NCBI RefSeq assembly: GCF_003324165.1 | Contig: NW_025407865.1 | Span: 124,001-188,000 of the forward strand | Direction of reading: 5' to 3' | Length of the DNA: 64,000 nt | From: Naegleria lovaniensis | Lineage: Eukaryota; Heterolobosea; Eutetramitea; Acrasida; Naegleriidae | In this document: piece by piece, positions 7,263 through 52,317 of the stretch | How the letters are laid out: each line of letters starts with the position of its first letter | Position numbering within the stretch: the stretch's first letter is position 1 | Position numbers and translations under genes: made by a program | Notes under the pieces: model-generated | Databases searched by the model: none | What the model saw: only the letters and a program-made list of their open reading frames with translations | Told to the model about the DNA's origin: nothing

Positions 7263-10200
7263 ATGTCCTCGAAGAGTGCTTCATCCTCTTCGGAACGAGA
7301 GAGAATTAAAGTATTTGTGCGGTGCAGGCCTCATTCCGAGAGTGAAACTATTGAAGATCCCTCCTGTAAATCATGTTTGGAAATTCGGGGTAAAGATATT
7401 AAGGTTTATAGATCTGCCTTACCAACGAAATCGTTTACATTTGATGGAATATTCGGACCGGAAGTTACGCAAGAAGAGGTTTTCAATACGGTTGCTATTG
7501 AGGCGATCGATGACGTTTTTAAGGGTTATCATGCAACAATATTGGTCTACGGACAAACAGGAACAGGAAAGGTAATTGGAATGTGATAGTTGTTGATGGA
7601 AAATTATTAACATTTGTTGAATGAATGCTCTTCTGAATATTAGACTGTAAGTAGAATTTGGAAATGGGAAAACGTATATCGTGGTCATGAAATTAGCATA
7701 CATTGAGCAACATTGATGAAAACAATTCTATTCAAAACGGTCTCATACCAAGAAGTGTACAGGAAATATTTAAGAGAATTAAAAACGATAACGACCATGA
7801 ATATTCTGTCAGAATGAGCTACTTACAAATATACATGGAAACGTTACAAGATTTACTTCAACCAGAAAGTAAGAGTTTGCAAATTAGAGAGGACCCTGAA
7901 GGTAACATTTACGTATCGGGATTGAGTAATCGAGAAATGGGTAATTTTGAAGATTGCATTAAATATTACAAAGAAGGAGATGTCAATAGAACGACTGCAC
8001 TGACTAAGATGGTATGTGGAGAACTTGCTTTGTTAAACTCCTAATCCATGCTTTTAAGAATGCAACATCTAGTAGAAGCCATGCCTGTGTAATTATTAAT
8101 GTACAAAAGAGAGGGAAATTGAACGGCACAGAGGCAGTGGAAGGTCTAGACAAAAAGAAGGTGACCAGTGCCAATTTATTCTTGGTTGACTTGGCTGGTA
8201 GTGAAAGATTAAAAAAGACAGAAGCAGAGGGAATTCGAAAAAAAGAAGCAAATTATATTAACTTGTCTTTGACAACTCTAGGTTTAGTGGTTCACTCGTT
8301 GGAAGCTAATCATCCTCACATACCATTCCGAGACTCCAAATTGACAAGACTATTACAGGATTCTTTGGGTGGAAATGGAAAAACTCGGATTGTAGTCACA
8401 ATTGCTCCAAATGAAGCCAATTGTCAAGAAACTGTAGGAAGTTTATTGTTTGGTGAACGAGCAATGAATGTAAAGACAACAGCTAAGGTGAACGAATCCA
8501 TAGATTACAAAGCATTATGTGTCAAGCTGAAGGCCCAACTTGAAACCTTGGAGGGAAAATATAGCGAGCTTGAAGAAGACTATCTCGATGTTACACACGA
8601 TAACGACAAGATGGATTTAGAGATTGAATCATTGATTGATGAGAACAAAAGTTTGAAAAAGCAGATAAAGATTTTGGAAAAAGAACAGATCAAAGAAAAG
8701 GAGAAAATTGTGTCTCTCATGAAAGGAGATTTGGCAGATTTGGAAAAGCAACATGAGATTCAAATTAAGGAGTTGAATCAACGAATAGAGACAATTTCAA
8801 TAGAATATGCACAAGAGTATGCAGGCAAAGAACAAAAATTAACAGAAATCATCAACAAAAAAGCAAGCGAAATAGACCGCTTAGAAACAACACTAGGTGA
8901 TAAACAGTCTGACATTGATGCCATGACAAAGAGGATTCAGGATTTGGAAAACGAAGTCGAGTTATTAACTTTCAACAATGAGCAACTCCAACGAGATTTG
9001 GAAATCACTGTGGAGCAATACGATAAACGCGAGAGTGAGCTTGAGAATGTACAAGAGCTAATTGAAAAATACGAAAAACAGGTGCTACTATTGAAAGAAA
9101 ACATAACTAGGCAACAGGAAGATTTTAATGGAGAACAGGAAGCTCTAAAACAAACTATTAAGGGACTTGAAACAAAGATTCATGAAATGGAAGCACAATA
9201 CTCCAGTGAAAAACTCAAACTTCAAGACGATATTGAGGAGCTCAAAAAGCTAAACCTTCTATTATCTTTAAACTTGGAGGATACATCTAAGGAACACGCA
9301 AATCAACAAAAGGAGTGGTCTAGCGAGAAATCAGAACTTGAACGACAGATTATTGGACTGCATCAAACAAAGAGTGACATGATTTCTCAAAATACTTCTC
9401 TAAACCTTGAAATCACCAACCTTAATAATTATATTCAGGAACTGCAACAGAGCGCCGTAAAATTAGGCGATGAATGGGACAATGAAATGAATAACCTCTT
9501 GAAAATTATTCAAGTTCAGGAGAAAGTAATACGGCACCATCAAGAACAATTCAAACACCATTTAATATGTCAAATTTCCAACGAGACTATCATTGACGGA
9601 ATGATCAGACATAACCAATCCACTGAAATGATGTGTATGGAGTTAAGATTACAGCTTGAACAATCCGAGTCTGAATCCGATCTCCTGCGACAAAAGCTCG
9701 AAGAAGTTTATCTGAAGTCATGTGAAGTGTTTAGGACATCCATGAACAGACATATCGACCAGAAAATTAAGAAAGGCACAGAAAAATTTGGAAAACGTTT
9801 GCATGACCTAAGTAAGGAAGGTCAATTTATTCAATTATTTTCAAAGAAAGAGTCAATTCTTACCAAAAAAAGTCAAGCCCAAACTCCCGAAGAAATAGCA
9901 AGCGATACGCTAAACTATATGATATGGGCTTTGGAATACACAAGTCCGTCATGTGGAACTCTGTCCAACATGCAGCTTTCTGACGAGAAAACTCTCGATA
10001 TTATCAATTCTCTGCTCGAAGAAAGCGAGAGACGAGTGAAATCTTCGAATAAGGACATTGCCAAGCATAAGGATGAAATTGACAACATATGGAGACATAT
10101 CAACAAGACATTGTTGACTCTTGTGGAAAACAATCATGAACACAATGTGAATTATATTAACAATATTATTAATGATGAGAAATATTTGGAGCTCATTGAA

Positions 10201-11226
10201 CTACAAGAAAAGGCCTCAGCATTGGAAGGTATTGATATTGATTTTATAGCTCCATCTAATATTCAAGATTTATCAGAAGAGACAATACATGTATTACAAA
10301 AGCTAGGAGACAAGTTTAAGCAAGATTTTGACACAATTAATTTGTACAGTAACTGGTTAGCAGTTGGCGGAGCTTTTTTGAACACCTTAATCGAGTGTGA
10401 AGATGCTAATTATCATGCATTATTATATTTAACTCATGAATTGTTGCATTTATTGCACACCACTCGAAATTTACTATTCCTGTTCGACTCGTCTGAGAGA
10501 GAGACGATTGTCTACAAGCTGTCATTGCATGGATGCGCCTCCAAGTTGTCCCAGTTTATTTCATCGGCTGAGGAAGTGAAACGAGAAATGGAAGAGCGAG
10601 TGCAACAATATGAGAATTTGAGGCGAAGCACTGATGCTGCTCTCATCATTCAACGATTCTATCGAAGATATAAGAAGAGAAAACAAGAAGCCATACTGTT
10701 GAAGCAGAAACAAGAAAGTGAAGCAGTCTTTCTCAAACAGAAACAGGAGCTTGCCGAACAATCGAGGCATCAGCTCCTAAAGATTCAAGAACTACAAATG
10801 TCTGAGATGAACTTCAAAGCAGAGATTGAGAAGCAAACAGCTAAAACTGGTCGAATGCTGCTCAAACAAAGTTTGTTGGAATTGGATAACATTTTCAATG
10901 CAATGAAAGAATACTTTCTGTACGGAGAGGACGATGACATGCCAGTGTCTCCATCATCTTCAAGACCAAGTACTCCCACATCATCACCACTTCAAGAACG
11001 CTCAAGAGCATTAAGCACTTCACCGCCAAATCCACTCAAAGAAAACTTTGGAGGGAGAGGTCGCTTATCGAGTGGGCAGTCTCGAGCGTTCAGTAATGCT
11101 TTCAACGACAAGGATTTGGAAGAATTGCACTCGTCCCTAGCATCTCGAGACTCCTCCAGCAAAGTTTCCCCAACAGCACGCAGAGTCCTCATTAAATCAC
11201 TACCACAAGGAATCACAAAAAAGTAG
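7263..11226 (+). CDS. Kinesin with N-terminal motor, coiled coil and IQ motif
   Basis: Microtubule motor. Exons placed by eye: 7263-7571, 7644-7646, 7697-8011, 8059-11226 (1264 residues). Motor motifs: FVRCRPHSES, P-loop GQTGTGKT followed by HTL, NATSSRSHA (switch I), LFLVDLAGSERL (switch II) and LTRLLQDSLGGNGKTR. After the motor (to about residue 400) there are several hundred residues of coiled coil, then an IQ-like calmodulin motif IIQRFYRRYKKRKQ, then a Ser/Pro-rich tail. The text SYLQIYMETLQDLL resembles the plant armadillo-repeat/ungrouped kinesins more than conventional kinesin-1, but no armadillo repeats are present, so the class is open. Donors are GTAATT, GTAAGT and GTATGT; the last intron is only 47 nt. 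The second exon is the unusual part: see the separate entry. Confidence 0.92.
7644..7646 (+). other. Candidate 3-nt microexon (ACT, Thr) in the kinesin P-loop
   Basis: The first exon ends in GQTGTGK at 7571 before a GTAATT donor. The next coding block starts at 7697 after AAATTAG with HTLSN. Joining them directly gives GKHTL and loses the Thr/Ser that every active kinesin P-loop needs. Between them the sequence reads ATATTAG, ACT, GTAAGTAG: an acceptor, one Thr codon and a consensus donor. Splicing this 3-base exon in restores GKTHTL without changing frame. Flanking introns would be 72 and 50 nt. No other acceptor nearby supplies the Thr. This is inference from sequence only. Confidence 0.75.
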
Positions 11227-18025: not shown

Positions 18026-20550
18026 ATGGGAAAAGGAACAGTTGTACCAACTTCTACTAGTTCTTCTATTGAATTTCAGACACGGAAAACAGGATTAAGC
18101 AAGAGCATTTCACGATCATCAGCAAGCTTTGGTGTCGTACGAAAGAGTACTTATTTTCATTCTGATGATGAAGCTTACTCGGAGAAGGCTGAACGCCGAG
18201 AGAGAAACCCAGTGATTGCTTGCTTACTCTCAGTACGGCTATTCATCATTGTCATAATTACACTACTCATTGCACTTTGTATCTTTTCGATATGGATTAC
18301 ATCCTACGTAACCAGCCAACACACAGCATTACAGAATACGCAGACTCTGTTTAAAACCATGAACGTACAAGTCTCTAATTACCTTTCCTCCCAAATAGTA
18401 CCAGCTCGATCAGTTGCTCAAACCATTGCTGATGATTATCACAACAGTGTTGTTGGACTCAATTTGAACGTCATGCCTTACTTGTCAAGCAAGATGAAAT
18501 GGTTTGGAGTAACAGGTGCCAATCTATGTCTTGGAGAGGAAGGATTGAGCGTTCTCTATGCTTATTCTCTTTCTGTATCAGCCCAAGGCACTGATATTTT
18601 GCTAGGTGCCTTTCAACCAAATGCCAACTCTAGGTTTTTGATGTTCATATCTAATATGGACACAGGAGAATTATATTACGACCAGATGGTGAGAAACATT
18701 TCATATGTAGTGTCTGCTACTGATTATTACATTGATTCCGTCAAGATGTTGAAGACCAACTCTGAAGGAGGCTTCGGCCCCGTATACAAGGTGATTAACA
18801 GTAAGTAATGCTGTTGTATTTTGAAAGATTTATGGGTAACATGGTTTTTCAAGGTGGGCAAGCCATGTACTGGTCCACTCCTGTCTACGACAAGAGCTTA
18901 CTTCCTCATCAAAAGAAACGATTAGGAATCGTTAAGGTCAACGTTTCCCTATTTAAAATTTCTCAATATTTGCTTTCAATGTCATTGCTTTCGAAAGGTT
19001 TTTTTGTAGTCACCGAGAATGATAGCAATTATGTCATTGGTGCCAACTTTGTTATTTCAGGACTGGATAATGACCGAATACCTGTGACAAATGTTACGGA
19101 AAAAGATACAAACATCATTTTCCAAAAATTATTGAACGTAAATCCACAAGATGCAGACATAATCAAAATTCATGCTAAGGGCGTCGACTATCTAGTATCA
19201 ACATTTTCATATTCTTTGTTTAATTTAAAGTGGAGAATCACAATGATTTTGCACGAAGGAGAGGTACAACAAGGAAGCATAATTAGTAGCTATATCATTC
19301 TGGGAGTGGCATTGTTTCTTTCTTTATTTGGAATTATAGCTAGTATTGTGCTTGGCTGGATTGTTACCAAACCGCTACGAATTATTCAACAAGACCTACT
19401 CAAAATTGAAGTGCTTGAATTGGACGACGTTGTTGAGCATCACTCAATATTCACAGAGCTGAAAAGCATTTATGCAAGCCTTATAGAAACAGTTACTGAC
19501 CTTAAAGAGATAAAAACATTTATCCCAGAGTCTGTTTTGAATCAATTAGGCCAGAGCAAAGATTTACCAAAGGAAATGACAGCTTTGCACAACGAATCTC
19601 CATTGCATGACAATGATAGCGGTCATTCTCAAGCTTCAGTTAGCAAACACAGCTCATTGCCAATAACTAAAATGGTTGGAAACATACTGAAGCTCGGTCT
19701 ACAAGAAGTAGAGATAAGTGTACTGTATGTGCAAGTACGTGGGTTGACAGAGCAGGAATTTGTTAACCCCTCTGAGTTAGGAAACGCTGCCAGCAGAATC
19801 ATCACGTCCATTTCGAACATATGCCGATCTTTAAAGCTGGATTTACAAATTCGAACCTATGATGAATTTGTCATCCCGTTTAACAGTGTGACTGCCCAGT
19901 CAGTTGAAACTGCCATGAAAATATCATCCATACTTTCTAAAGACATCTCTGAAGCAGAAGAAGCCATAAAATTTCATATTGGGGTTGCCTCTGGCTTCGT
20001 TTTGCAAGGCAATATTGGAAGTAAGAATCACAGATATCATGCATTAATTGGATCATTAATGGAGAAGGCACAATATTTGTCGAAACTGAACGCTTTTTTC
20101 AATACTACTATTATTATTGACCAAACCACCTTTAACCATGCCAAAGATCAATTCTTTGTAAGGCCAGTAGAAAGATATCTCATGTCAAAAGACATTGAAA
20201 CCGTTTATCAAGTCCTCAAACCAAATCAAAAGTGCGAAGACGATGAGTGGATGTATGTGTTAGCACAAAACAAACAAAACGACACGTACAGAAAATATTC
20301 AGCTAATTTTGCAAGATTGTTTTTGCATGAAAATGAAAGCCAGGTTGAAATAGCTGTTGACTATTTCAAAGACTATATTAATTCCCATTTTCACCACAAG
20401 CAAAAGGACCATATTCTCGAAAGATTAGAGAATATTTTAAAGCAACGAGAAGAAGTTGTGAATTTTAATTTTTCTAAGTATCATTCTAACATTAGGGATG
20501 AGCTTTGTGGATATTTCAATTCCACTAAATTAAGGACAGAACATTACTGA
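18026..20550 (+). CDS. Receptor-type class III nucleotidyl cyclase homolog, probably inactive
   Basis: Exons 18026-18800 and 18854-20550 (823 residues; 53-nt intron, GTAAGT donor, join VINS/GGQAMYW). A transmembrane helix at residues 64-93 and a second near 402-430 (IILGVALFLSLFGIIASIVLG) enclose an extracellular sensor of Cache type. A HAMP-like stretch (IVTKPLRIIQQDL) leads to a class III cyclase fold at about 540-720: VEISVLYVQVRGLT, then FHIGVASGFVLQGNIGSKN and HALIGSLMEKAQYLSKL. Active cyclases read FADIRG and VNxAxRL at these places. Here the first metal Asp is Gln (about 551), and the usual Asn and Arg are Glu and Tyr. The fold is clear, catalysis is doubtful. It may sense a ligand and regulate a partner cyclase. 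Confidence 0.82.
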
Positions 20551-21666: not shown

Positions 21667-24600
21667 TTATTTGATAGTTTGAACTTCAGAAACAGTATTG
21701 GGGTCCATGTTTTCAATATTTTCGTGTGACTGTACAAAGTGAGTGTTTGGTTGAAATCCAAGAGTTACAGAAGTCCGTGTGGGCATTGGTATGGTCTCTG
21801 CTGGTCTAGCAAAATCGACTGGCAAATTGAAATGACTAAATTCATGTTGAAAGATTGGGAGTTGCGGTAATTGCATGCTTGAAGATGGGTTTAAGGGAAT
21901 TCGAGCTGCAGGAGGAGGTGACACTAGATTCACAACCACTTGTGAAGAATGAGAGCTGGATGAACCTGCCTTACTCACACGTCTGTGTTGATTCTTTGAA
22001 GAAGGAGTGTCAGAGGCGAGATCTACGACGGTTTTTTCTTGTTGACGTTTCAAATAGTTGCTAATGGTGTGTTTTTTCTGTACGGCGGCATCATCTTCAT
22101 AATTAAATGATTCGTTCAAGTAATCATCTGATTCTACTGAATATAACATGTCATGCCATGTCACACCATTAATTTCTTCTAATTTTTCTAGATCTTTCAC
22201 ATGCGACTCAAGTTCTTCATAAATTTTTCCTTTTGGATGCAATGACTCGAGAAGCTTCTGTGTTTCTGATGATCTCTTATCTCGTAGAGTGAAAATTTCT
22301 AGCAACTCTTGTTCAGAAGTAAAGTAACGATATTGATTCTCTTTTACCAGTGTATTCTTAATTAAACCATCCTTAATCACTTGCCTTCTATACATAACCT
22401 CTTCTATAGTTCCTACATTCACAAGTCTGTAAGTGACAACGTTTTTGGTTTGACCGACTCTGTAAGCACGATCCACAGCTATAAGAAATATTTCAAAATA
22501 AGTAGTTGATGCGGGACACGAAAAATTAGTATCATACTAACCTTGTTGATCTGTAGCAGGATTCCATGATATATCTAAAATTATGCATCTGGAAGCTCCT
22601 GTCAACGTGAGTCCAACACCTCCTGCGCCAGTTGTGAGAAGAAAACAGCTATATGACGGGTCTTTTTGAAATAACTCGACTCTGCTTTGTCTCTCTTTTG
22701 TTGACGATATTGTTCCATCAATTCTTAACACCTTCAGCTTTAAATGCTTCCTAATGATATGTTCGACAATGTCAAGCATGGATGTGTATTGTGAAAAAAT
22801 TAAGGTTCTATGGCCGGTTCTCTTGTGTTCTTTGAGTAATTTCACCATCACTGTCAATTTAGAACTTTCAGCAATCAGAGTTTCACAAGGAATGTCAGAA
22901 ACATCAATATGTTCCTCCATTTCTTGAGATAACAATTTTTCAATATTTTCATCATCATCTTCTTCTTCAGAGTTGTCATCAATCTTACTTAAAAATGTGT
23001 CTGCATTAGCATTCAATCTCGGATGGTCACACATTGTTCTCAGCGCAGAAATTGCAGATAAAATACAAGCTCTATCCGTATTTTTGCTCAAAATTTGTCT
23101 AACAGTCTCTGATTTCAAATAGTTAGTGTATAGGACTTCTTGAGCCTTTGCTAAATAACACCATAGCACTAGCTCATTTTTCTGGGAAATCTTAGCTTTT
23201 CCTGTTCCTTGCTTTTTGAGAATGCTCGACATACCAACATTGTGGTCACTTTCAAGTACCTGGCTTTTGAGTCGCTTCAAAAAATAAGTAGAAATTAATG
23301 CTCTCAATTTTTGGCTAAGCTTGTTTCCTAATATTTTCTGGGTATTTGAGGCATCTCTTCGTCGAGATTTCACAATGTCAAGTTCATAATTTTTCTTAAA
23401 TTCACTTCTATTTCCAAGAATGTTATTTCCATAAAATATGTAATCGTATATAGCCCACATTTCAACTAGCTTGTTCATTAAAGGCGTTCCCGTCAGACAA
23501 AATTTTGCCTTACTCGTAACCTTTCTCAAATTTGTAGCAATAGCAGTCTTTTCATTCTTGATTTGATGAGCTTCATCAACAATGGTAACGTCAAACTCTT
23601 GCTTTGCACAAATGGATGCAAATAATCCAATCTTGGAAACCAAGGTTCTATAAGTTGTGATTAGCACACCTGGATGTTTTTTGGTGTGACTGTGGAATGA
23701 TTTTATCATGTATTCAAATTCTGACTTTTGTAGAGCATGGAAGAGATACGGAGTAACAAGGGGAGCCCACTGACGCAATTCACTAATCCACGTCTGCAAA
23801 ACGGACAATGGAGCTACAACCAAAAAGCGCTTTCCTGCTTCAGCTGCTGCAATTCCAGATAAGAAACTCGATAATTGTACAGTTTTGCCAAGCCCCTACA
23901 TGAGTTGAAGTTGTGAGTAAAAAGAAAGACCATAAAGACTTATGCCTGCTTACCATTTCATCTGCCAAAATGCCGCCTCTGTAAGTACTATCATTATATC
24001 GTTGATTTAGCCATTTGATTCCCTCTTTTTGAAAGCTGTAAAGCTTGTTATACATTCTTCCTTCTAGCATGAAGTTCTGGAGGTAATAGGTGGCATCATC
24101 ACCTTCATCATCTGTCTTCCAACCATTTGGTAACTCTGTGAGCTTGGGAGGATTTTTGATAAGCCTCTTGTATTTCGATTTTAACTGGGCGGTGCTTTGG
24201 GTAGTTTCTGATTGGGTCGCCTCTTCAATTTCTATTAAGGCATTGACATCAATATCGTCACTATTAATGGATATCAAATCAATTTCTTGAGACATGGTCG
24301 TTTCTTCAAATTCTTCATCATCTTCAGTTTCTTCTCCTGTTTCAATCTCCTCCTCATCTGTATGGACCTGTATGACTGCTTCCTCTTCTTCCTCAATTTG
24401 GTTGGTGCTTTGAGAGTCTTCAGCATCATCGTCCACAATAAAATCTTCCAGATCTCTTTCAATAATGCGTTTCTTTTTCTTAATTTTTTCTGTAATATTG
24501 GAACCAAATACAATATGTTCATCTTCTGATGAATCATCTCTTTGCTGTTTGGAAGGTTTAGCACTCGTTGTTTTTTTCAGTTTTTTTGATGAATGATTAG

Positions 24601-35745: not shown

Positions 35746-38471
35746 ATGTTTTTATCTGGTTCCGGTGCTGAAAATGATTCACAGCGCACTTCTTCCAACA
35801 ACTCATCACCTCGTTCTCTAACTTCTCCTCGAGGTTCCAACAGCGCAAACTCTTCCTTACAGCAGCAACATCATCCAAATGGATCTCATGCAAATTCACA
35901 AAATTCTTCTGAAAAACTTGTTTATTCCACAAAATTATCATTGATCAGTCCTTCAATGACGTCTACGAACGGAACTAGTTTTCCAGGTTCCAATGTTGGT
36001 TCAACTTCTTCCTCATCATTGAACGATGAATCGGATCGTATTTTGGAATTTCGTGCATCGATTCAACATTTGACATTTACTGAAATTTATGAAAAAATTG
36101 AACGACAACATGAAGAACAAAAAGAATTATTGAAATTATATTGTCCTCGATTGTTCGACGAGTTGAAAATTACCAATGAAAAATTATTTTCCATTTTGGT
36201 TTGGATTTTCACACAAATTCCACTTTCCCAAAAATATTCCAAAAGGTTAAAGAAAAATTTCGAAAAAGTGTTCACTGCCAAAACCTTTGTCTCTCTCGTG
36301 ACTTCACAACTACACAAAATTTCATTACCTTATTTTCCAAATATTATTGCCACTCCGAAAAGCAATGCTGATATTTTAGACAAGTTGAAAAATTTATATC
36401 GAAGTATTAATAATACTTTGGGAGATGTGATGAACATGAACATCAATAACAACAACAACAACCACAATAATCATTATGGCGCTCGAACCACGACTTCCAT
36501 TTTGGCACCTCAGGTGTCTCATTCATCATTGACTTCTCCAAGACAACAAGCATCATCATTACCATCCACACACGACACCGTCGTTGATAATTTTTCATTC
36601 AAAAACGATTGGACCAAAGTTCAAGCTGAATTATTAGGTCAATTCTTTTTAGAAATTGGAGTGATTGAAAATATCAAACCAGAAAAGAAGAAGAAATTTA
36701 CAGAGAGATCTCATCGTTACATGTTTCATTCAGAGACGATAGAGTATTATGCTGACTTGTTGTTTGTGAGTGCCATTACTAGTGCAGAACAGAGACAAGT
36801 GTTTGAACATTGGAAAATGTTCATTCCACTCAAAACTCCATTTTCACAATTTGCACATGATTTTTATTCTCCATTTTTGAGTGGCATTTCGACAGGTTCC
36901 ATGCAATTATTGACAGCAGGACAACTCGTTCAACAATGTTGTCTTCGTTCGATCATTGTTTCACAAGAAAAAGATTTTGAGCTCGTTCAAAACCATATTA
37001 AGAAACTTCAAGAATCTGTGAATCATGACTTGTCACCAATCCATGAAAATTCATCGCCTCGTGATGCTAACATGTCTTCATTATCAACCATTGGAACAAC
37101 ATTGTCCACGAGTAGTGCGTATCCATTAGTGTTTCGAAATGTGGAATCTGCACAACAACAATTACGAACCAAAGACATGTCCAAGACAGAGACAAGTTCA
37201 CCATTCATGGATCGAAGATCATTTCGAATGAGTGCAGCTTCTTCTGGATTGAAAGCAGGTTGGGAATCTCAATCATTGATCGGAAAACGACTCATTTTGG
37301 AAAGTGGCATGGGAGATTATGAAATGCAATCTCCGCGCACAAAATTTTATGAACAACATGGAATTCGAGCCAAAGTTGAGAATTTGCAACAAGCTCTTGT
37401 ACTTCCTTCTGTATTGGAAGAATTTTCCAAATTCTGTGTCACTAATCATATTGAAGAAATTGTGAATTGTTGGAAAGCCATTCAATCCTACATGAAAATG
37501 GAATCAGCCAAAGATCGAAAAGACCAAGCGCTCTATATTCTGAATCAATTCATTGACGACTCTTCACCCAATGCAACTCCGATCAATCTCGACTCTGAAA
37601 CTCGTGAACAAGTCCTTTCGAAAATTCAGAGCAATTTGGAAAATTTTGCCTTCTTTACCAAAGATTTATTTTCCGCAATGAATGTCGAATTAATCTTGTT
37701 GAACGATTTGAAAGAACCTTTCATGAATTTTAATCAGAAACGAAATCAAGAAATTGATTTGGAAATTGATGGCTTGCAAGAAAAACTTCGAATTCGTGCC
37801 ATTCAGGAAGAAAAGTCATCGAAGAGTTTCTTGTCACAAGTGGTGGGTGCACTCAAGAAGAAGCCAAGCACGAGTACGACGATTCCTGCATCGTCAAATA
37901 CTTCTTCTTCGTCTGGTTTCCTTAATAGTCCCAATTTGACAGATTCCATGGAATTAATGACAAATTCAAACAAATTGTCAGGAATCAATCGATCACAACA
38001 ACAAATCAATTCTCCAGTGTATCCAGAGATGGAGAAATTACCAGTTCATCTCTATGGTTCATTACCAGATGTGCTTACCCATAGAGATGCTATCAAACAA
38101 TTCAAAGTATTCTGTACGTCAGAACATTGTGAAGAATATGTGTTGTTTTATGAGGCTGTTGAGGAATTTAGAACATTACCGACGCAACAAGAACGAATTC
38201 AGAAAGCGAAGGAAATATTTGAAACATTTATTGAGATACCCTGAAACGAACCAGTTTGTTTGAGGCTCAATCTCGTTATTACACGATTGGATGTAGCGCT
38301 GAAGATATTGAACGCATTAGAAAGAAGGTATTGAATGAAGACATTTCTATGGAAATGTTTGATGACCTTTCATTGGACGTGCAAGAACAAATGAAGGATG
38401 TGTTTGAAAGATTTGCACAAGCCCAAAGAGAATGGAAAGCTAAAAGAATGTTGGCTGGAAAAGAAATGTAA
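35746..38471 (+). CDS. RGS-domain protein, frame broken inside the last domain
   Basis: Regulator of G-protein signalling: RGS domains speed GTP hydrolysis on G-alpha. An 832-residue ORF (35746-38244) starts with a Ser/Asn/Gln-rich region and then has helical segments, a divergent RGS-like domain at about 545-660 (LPSVLEEFSKFCVTNHIEEI) and a clearer one beginning near 765 (HRDAIKQFKVFCTSEHCEEY, AKEIFETFIE). That domain is cut by a TGA at 38242-38244. Its C-terminal half (RYYTIGCSAEDIERIRKKVL, MFDDLSLDVQEQMKDVFERF) continues in another frame to 38471. No GT-AG intron bridges the gap of fewer than 30 bases, so one missing base or a frameshift is implied. It could act together with the G-beta gene about 4 kb away. 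Confidence 0.78.
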
Positions 38472-50279: not shown

Positions 50280-52317
50280 TTACCAATAGGTCCTATTGAC
50301 ATATGATTTTTCAATCACCCCCTTCTCAAAACAATAATAAGGAAGATAATAATTCCACTGCTCTCTTCTCTCTTCCCCTGCATCTACTCTGAGTTTAGAA
50401 GGATTCAACGACCAGACATGCAATATAGGTTCGCATGTCTGTTGCAAATTTAAATATTCACATGAACGAGAATAAAAATTATATTCTTCCTCGCTCTCAA
50501 TCCGATACAGAAATTCATTGTTGTGTTTTGAAAGTCTTCCCTCCAAGTTGTAGCTTTTAACAATTGCAAAAGGGAGAAAGATGATTTGATCTTGTCTTGA
50601 AAGTTCCATTGGTTTCTTGAATTCTGATCCATGTTGTAATGTATACTTTTCATTCGTGATCTTCTCATCCCGAGAAACAGGCTCCGAACGCGTAGTCAGA
50701 ATCAAAAACTCTCCCTGAAGGACTTTCATAACATGTTCACATTTTTCTTTACCTACCGAGACATAGAGTCGACTGGAATCGAACGAATGGCCACACGACA
50801 AATCTCGATCCAAACATGTAGTTGAATCTACTATACCCATGATCGATTGTAATTGAGAGAGATGAAAAGGCTTGTATCTACGTTCATGTGTTCTTATATA
50901 GAGAAATGTTGTGTTCGTCGATTGGCTAGTTGAATCTATGGTCATTTTGATAAAACTTGCTTCATGTGTTTCTTCGGCTGCTGAATGTCCGTTGCTGTCG
51001 TCCTCTGCTGAGAAGAGAGTCATGTTGCTATAGTCCAAATCGTCGTTGCTGGTTGAGAGATTTAAAAATTTTGAGGAAATGATCATTCTCGAAGGTGCAC
51101 AACACCAACAATATTGTTGCAAAGTTTCTAATAAGGCTTTTCTTTCCTTCTCTTTACAAGGCCGCTCGTGTTTGGACAACTTGTCAATTTTTTTTTGATC
51201 CTCCTTGGAAATCAACGCTCTTCGTTCCAAACCACCCAATTCTCTAATTCGCTGTGCTGAAAGATAAATCATTGGTTGAGGATCCTTTTCCTTTCTCACG
51301 GCCCAATAAGATTCACCATTGGTTGAAGTTTCATCCAAAGGACAAAAGAAATAAAGCATTCCTCCAGATTTAGGAACTACATGTCCAATCATAATATTCC
51401 AATTGTTGAAGATTGATTTGACAAGCAAAAAGAAATGGATCACCATCTGAACACTTGGGCCATTCAAAATTTCGAGGTAAATCTGGACAACCTCCAATTT
51501 TTGATTCTCCCACAGCCAGATATTCCTCTCCTATCAACAAGGACGGTCCCATGTGTTCACATGGAGGAGTTTCCCAAAAGAAACGAGAAGGAGAATATTT
51601 CTTTCTTTTAAAATTAGGTGGTTGGTAATAGTGAGAAGAAAAGGATTCTAAGGTGAAGGACATGCATGGACGACAATTGTGAACTGGAGAATGGATCATG
51701 ATGGTTGACTTGTTTCCATCGTTCTTCATCTTGGTATTCTTTGATTCTTCTTCTTCTAAATCGGAATTCGAGTTGTTTTGGGCGTTGGAATGAATAAATT
51801 GTTGTTGCCAAGGAAGATATTTAAATTTTGCAACCTTTTCAATGAAATATCGTTTCCAAAAAGAGTTCACAGCACGAGGATCCATTCCTGACTCTTTTCC
51901 AGTTGTGGTTGTTTCTTGTTTGACACTTTGTATAGGTCGATAATGTGACCGAATGTGTTGCTCGATGATTCGAGAATCAGGAATGATTGGTTCAAAACCG
52001 AGTCTTCTCTGAACGAGTAATTTCCAGTCCAACTCATTCGACACGAGTTCGAACCAATTTCGACACACTTTGGAAATATTTTTCAATAATTCACATCCAT
52101 TTAAATATTCGAAAATGCTCAATAACAATTCGTTTGGAACATGTTGTGAAAAACTACAATTATTCGAGTCGGAAAGAAGCTTGGATAGGGTGGTTTCCTT
52201 TCTGGATTCTTCATTGGTTTTTCTCATCTTGTCAGCAGGTTGTTGTGTGAGAAAATAGTATGGCTCGTCATACGAATGCATGACCATGTCTTTGCGTTTT
52301 AAAGACATTTTTATCAT
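50280..52317 (-). CDS. F-box plus DUF1963 (YwqG-like) protein, one frame break
   Basis: The N-terminal ORF (52317-51370) has an F-box at about residues 60-105 (VPNELLLSIFEYLNGCELLK, SKVCRNWFELV), implying SCF ubiquitin-ligase assembly. It then enters a YwqG/DUF1963 domain: YLAVGESKIGGCPDLPRNFE, FACQINLQQLEYYDW. The frame stops at TAA 51370-51372, just where the domain continues in the next frame (KSGGMLYFFCPLDETS) to 50280. Dropping one base within TTCCTAAA would restore about 678 residues with no loss. The end of the domain is visible (HVMKVLQGEFLILTT, LFSAEDDSNGHSA). DUF1963 proteins are of unknown function. The F-box pairing suggests it selects substrates. Confidence 0.75.

Follow-up and report, generated by a model that had tools for sequence, protein, structure and literature searches.

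The threonine that completes the P-loop of a kinesin motor is most probably encoded here by an internal exon of only three nucleotides. The gene lies at 7263-11226 on the forward strand of the window, by which we mean the whole 64-kb stretch of DNA that was analysed, and comprises a motor domain and a long tail. Judging from the sequence, we put at about 0.92 the probability that ACT at 7644-7646 is a genuine spliceosomal internal exon that supplies this threonine, that its two flanking introns are removed sequentially, and that its inclusion is constitutive or the main form. Joined in the RNA, the exons 7263-7571, 7644-7646, 7697-8011 and 8059-11226 would encode 1264 amino acids, and this frame has no internal stop and one terminal stop. 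The parts of the gene model are:

7263..7571 (+), exon 1: from the ATG start to GQTGTGK, 103 codons, ending in phase 0; placed by translation and by alignment with kinesin motors in the PDB
7572..7643 (+), intron A: 72 nt, GTAATT...TATTAG
7644..7646 (+), predicted 3-nt microexon ACT: threonine of the Walker A motif or P-loop (GxxxxGKT), phase 0/0; placed by the unique combination that restores GKTHTL, the shuffle test and the gain in Pfam score
7647..7696 (+), intron B: 50 nt, GTAAGTAG...AATTAG
7697..8011 (+), exon 3: HTLSNIDENN...TALTKM, with an in-frame TAG directly upstream
8012..8058 (+), intron C: 47 nt, GTATGT...TTTAAG, just upstream of switch I (NATSSRSH)
8059..11226 (+), exon 4: switch I SSRSH, switch II DLAGSE, the remaining motor domain, a long hydrophilic tail and the stop

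With splice junctions marked by slashes, the region around the microexon reads ...GGAACAGGAAAG (7571) / GTAATTGG...GAATATTAG (7643) / ACT (7644-7646) / GTAAGTAG...GAAATTAG (7696) / CATACATTGAGC. By eye, the tail of the protein has coiled-coil-like character and an IQ-like stretch; a Pfam search of the tail returned no domain beyond the motor.

Source of the P-loop threonine

The first-pass annotation had placed GQTGTGK at the end of one exon and HTL at the start of the next, and both the sequence and the coordinates (7571 and 7697) proved to be right. It had also claimed that the threonine is missing unless ACT is spliced in. We enumerated all GT/GC-AG combinations of one or two introns, each at least 20 nt long, and obtained 41 in-frame models. 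The claim stands, as exactly one of these models, with introns 7572-7643 (72 nt) and 7647-7696 (50 nt) around ACT, gives GQTGTGKTHTL. One other model has a threonine after the lysine, but it inserts nine residues and needs an intron of 23 nt. A single intron between the lysine and the histidine can produce only GTA, GTG, GAG or TAG as the codon between them, whatever the splice dinucleotides, and serine or threonine is therefore impossible by this route; the same algebra rules out an AT-AC or other non-canonical single intron. Nor can the HTL exon be extended upstream, because TAG stands immediately before 7697. A recursive splice site, in which AG and GT abut with no exon, is inapplicable, as the AG and GT here are 3 bases apart.

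The gap might also be an assembly error in a gene whose true form has an ordinary exon at this place, and in three other genes of the window the loss of a base would indeed account for the frame breaks seen. However, no single-base change sets a serine or threonine beside HTL, since the triplet before CAT is, by inspection, TAG, and the kinesin frame is otherwise unbroken through 3.8 kb of coding sequence. The kinesin result is not accounted for by small consensus errors of this kind, as an ordinary exon would need three additional bases beside HTL, not one. We regard an assembly error as the least probable of the explanations considered here.

Since it is the protein, not the motif, that sets the gap, what matters is the frequency with which a gap of this kind carries an appropriate codon flanked by AG and GT. 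Dinucleotide shuffling of the 125-nt gap, repeated 100,000 times, yielded a serine or threonine codon in this position, with both introns required to be at least 40 nt, in 0.92% of the shuffled gaps, and AG/ACN/GT in 0.39%. The longer patterns AG/ACN/GTRAG and AG/ACN/GTAAGT arose in 2 (2e-5) and 1 (1e-5) of the 100,000 shuffles, respectively. A modest correction for the search of the whole window is fair, yet the conclusion is unchanged. When both strands of the 64 kb are counted, AGACNGTAAGT occurs a single time in the window, at the microexon.

The motor domain with and without the threonine

The Walker A pattern GxxxxGK[ST] is present, as GQTGTGKT, only with ACT spliced in, and without it the loop reads GQTGTGKH. 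The Pfam Kinesin profile (PF00225) scored 341.3 bits with the threonine and 329.9 bits without it, a difference of 11.4 bits, and the match of the threonine-containing protein covers the full profile (1-327 of 327). For PF16796 the scores were 82.2 and 71.3 bits, respectively. The best solved relatives of the motor by sequence are the KIF4 and kinesin-1 motors in the PDB, with E-values of 1e-68 to 1e-70. The motor is otherwise intact over 340 residues when compared with KIF4, and NATSSRSH and DLAGSE are both present. The predicted product is thus a complete motor if ACT is included, and an in-frame protein of 1263 amino acids with GQTGTGKHTL if it is skipped, while intron retention would lead to an early stop at codon 108 (intron A), 124 (intron B) or 108 (both).

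If a single 125-nt intron (7572-7696) were removed, the kinesin would lack the P-loop threonine and be a degenerate or non-catalytic motor. Such an intron has both a donor and an acceptor available, and the frame would be kept. This explanation is nevertheless very unlikely in our estimation, as all the remaining motor motifs are intact, the 1264-codon frame is open, and the AG/ACT/GTAAGT match, at about 1e-5 by shuffling, would be left unexplained.

A DNA pattern of the P-loop that ends before the serine/threonine position had mostly prokaryote matches and, besides these, six kinesin-like stretches (contigs L013, L053, L091, L114, L123 and L124). All six carry S or T at that position. In tblastn, five of the six matched across the P-loop, with no intron there, and the stretch on L124 matched only further along. 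These kinesin-like genes on prokaryote contigs are probably eukaryote contamination of metagenome-assembled genomes. When the kinesin protein itself was used as a query against the viral and prokaryote collections, no relative was matched.

Probable splicing of a three-nucleotide exon

In TATTAG/ACT/GTAAGT a very short coding segment lies between an AG and a GT, as in a microexon. The donors at 7572 and 7647 ranked at the 99.8th and 99.2th percentile of GT sites (top 0.2% and top 0.8%). The acceptors are ordinary rather than strong: among all AG, that at 7643 stands at the 69th percentile and that at 7696 at the 63rd. The donor of intron B had previously been called perfect, a fair description given that two other predicted introns in the window have the same 8-nt donor, GTAAGTAG. 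Ten other introns, predicted in the window by a crude gene finder, served for comparison: the lengths of 72 and 50 nt fall inside their range of 47-223 nt, and all four splice sites around ACT score within the range of the other introns. Introns A and B are rich in A+T, with a G+C content of 28% and 34%, compared with 41% in exon 1 and also 34% in exon 3. A branch-site motif was not evident by eye in intron B, and its acceptor is average; every gene model uses that acceptor. RNA folding of the introns and of the whole region was no more stable than that of shuffles (z of -0.65, 0.35 and 0.92).

The exon is too small to be recognised as a unit: three nucleotides leave no room for the acceptor machinery and U1 together, since the acceptor and donor complexes would overlap, and this argues for intron definition and for removal of the introns one after the other. 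The two short flanking introns would most likely be defined across the intron and excised in turn. Removal of the first, whichever of the two it is, would fuse ACT to a long exon and give the other intron an ordinary splice site. For the single-nucleotide exon of Arabidopsis APC11, intron definition is likewise the authors' preferred model, the two introns being excised in succession (PMC4674806), and competition between flanking introns has been discussed for plant microexons (PMC8831610). The short introns found here suit the intron-definition model, and we infer the same for the kinesin gene. Because the motor is active only with ACT, the microexon is probably included constitutively or, failing that, in the main form.

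The first-pass annotation had proposed that inclusion of ACT could act as a switch. Its premise holds, in that skipping stays in frame and breaks the P-loop (GQTGTGKHTL), but the switch itself is conjectural, and the splice-site scores do not favour skipping. If the microexon were regulated, skipping would give a full-length GQTGTGKH kinesin unable to cycle ATP, which could hold fast to microtubules and obstruct the normal motor; from one gene the cell could then make an active kinesin or, alternatively, a possibly rigor-like blocker of that motor with a defective P-loop. The frame would be kept (1263 amino acids), and the 125-nt intron needed is inside the local length range. In kinesin-1, T93N at the equivalent residue is a rigor mutant with no ATP hydrolysis and tight microtubule binding (PMC7305210), a comparison that is merely suggestive because it concerns a point mutation and not a deletion. 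Besides, deleting the threonine displaces the residues that follow the loop, with the possible result that the protein simply misfolds. Moreover, the splice-site strengths do not single skipping out, the RNA structure of the region is not beyond chance, and in a survey of 65 eukaryotes that covered Naegleria gruberi, intron retention was commoner than exon skipping in every species but one (PMC6142364). We therefore consider regulated skipping improbable, and favour ACT as an exon included constitutively or in the main form.

Although rare, exons of 1-3 nt are already on record in plants, animals and a fungus. The microexon had been described as close to the lower size limit for exons, which is fair for 3 nt, but 3 nt is not the limit, as 1-nt exons have been documented in Arabidopsis APC11 (PMC4674806), plant VPS55 (PMC8831610) and Fusarium CYP621A (PMC12940212). 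The APC11 exon resembles the one proposed here in being an ultra-short constitutive internal exon that is required for the correct protein and for which sequential removal by intron definition has been proposed; it differs in its length (1 nt against 3 nt), in its proof by RNA, in its plant origin and in lying outside any nucleotide-binding loop (PMC4674806). Plant microexons of 1-15 nt were similarly overlooked by annotation and restore a conserved protein (PMC8831610). Among them, the 1-nt exon of VPS55 is followed by a conserved strong donor, GTRAGT, where the kinesin has GTAAGT; the VPS55 exon is conserved across land plants and seen in RNA-seq, whereas the kinesin microexon is predicted from DNA. 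In Fusarium CYP621A a tiny exon also completes a short conserved motif (PKG), although that gene is a fungal P450 and its 1-nt exon is backed by orthologs and SRA reads (PMC12940212). The same length of 3 bp is found in the micro-exon of Drosophila homothorax and in exons of troponin T and NCAM (PMC7392893). In contrast to the kinesin exon, those of homothorax and NCAM are alternatively spliced, and that of homothorax lies between two conserved domains and not in a catalytic motif. Our literature searches found no paper naming Naegleria and microexons together.

A one-codon exon in a catalytic loop, in a host that is probably a deep-branching protist, would indicate how small exons can get without function being lost. 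It is also a warning for annotation, since an automatic pipeline would yield a protein without an essential residue or lose most of exon 1. Standard aligners of RNA-seq reads will overlook an exon of 3 nt. Our own simple gene finder, run over the window, missed the microexon and dropped most of exon 1; it has no knowledge of P-loops, and 3 nt offers it too little signal.

Other genes of the window

Frame breaks of apparently 1 nt occur in three other genes of the window, each of which reads on in a different frame at a stop or close to one, and the assembly may therefore hold small errors. The RGS-domain gene at 35746-38244 (+) has a TGA in the middle of the domain (profile position 59 of 117), and the frame from 38241 continues at once (LKRTSLFEAQSRYYTIGCSAEDIERIRKK...); no intron fits this break (window 38200-38470), and either a small consensus error or a genuine frameshift seems to be the cause. 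At 18026-20550 (+), two open reading frames in different frames meet at 18803-18808 (...VYKVINSK* and VMLLYFERFMGN...), and this points to a single gene that either contains a consensus error or has a very short intron. The F-box and DUF1963 gene at 50280-52317 (-) changes frame near 51370 (...QLEYYDW / VPKSGGMLYFF...). Taken as a group, the three breaks look like small consensus errors, and we left the genes unmended.

The window is eukaryotic by its introns and by its genes for the kinesin, TFIIB, the RGS protein and a mitochondrial-type cysteine desulfurase, and the style of its genes may point to Naegleria or a relative. Rfam and ARAGORN searches over the window gave two tRNAs only. In a gene for an SNF2-type helicase, a predicted 58-nt intron at 23896-23953 (-) splits motif I (ILADEM/GLGKT) and is supported by that motif, which makes this gene a second P-loop ATPase in the window with an intron at the nucleotide-binding loop.
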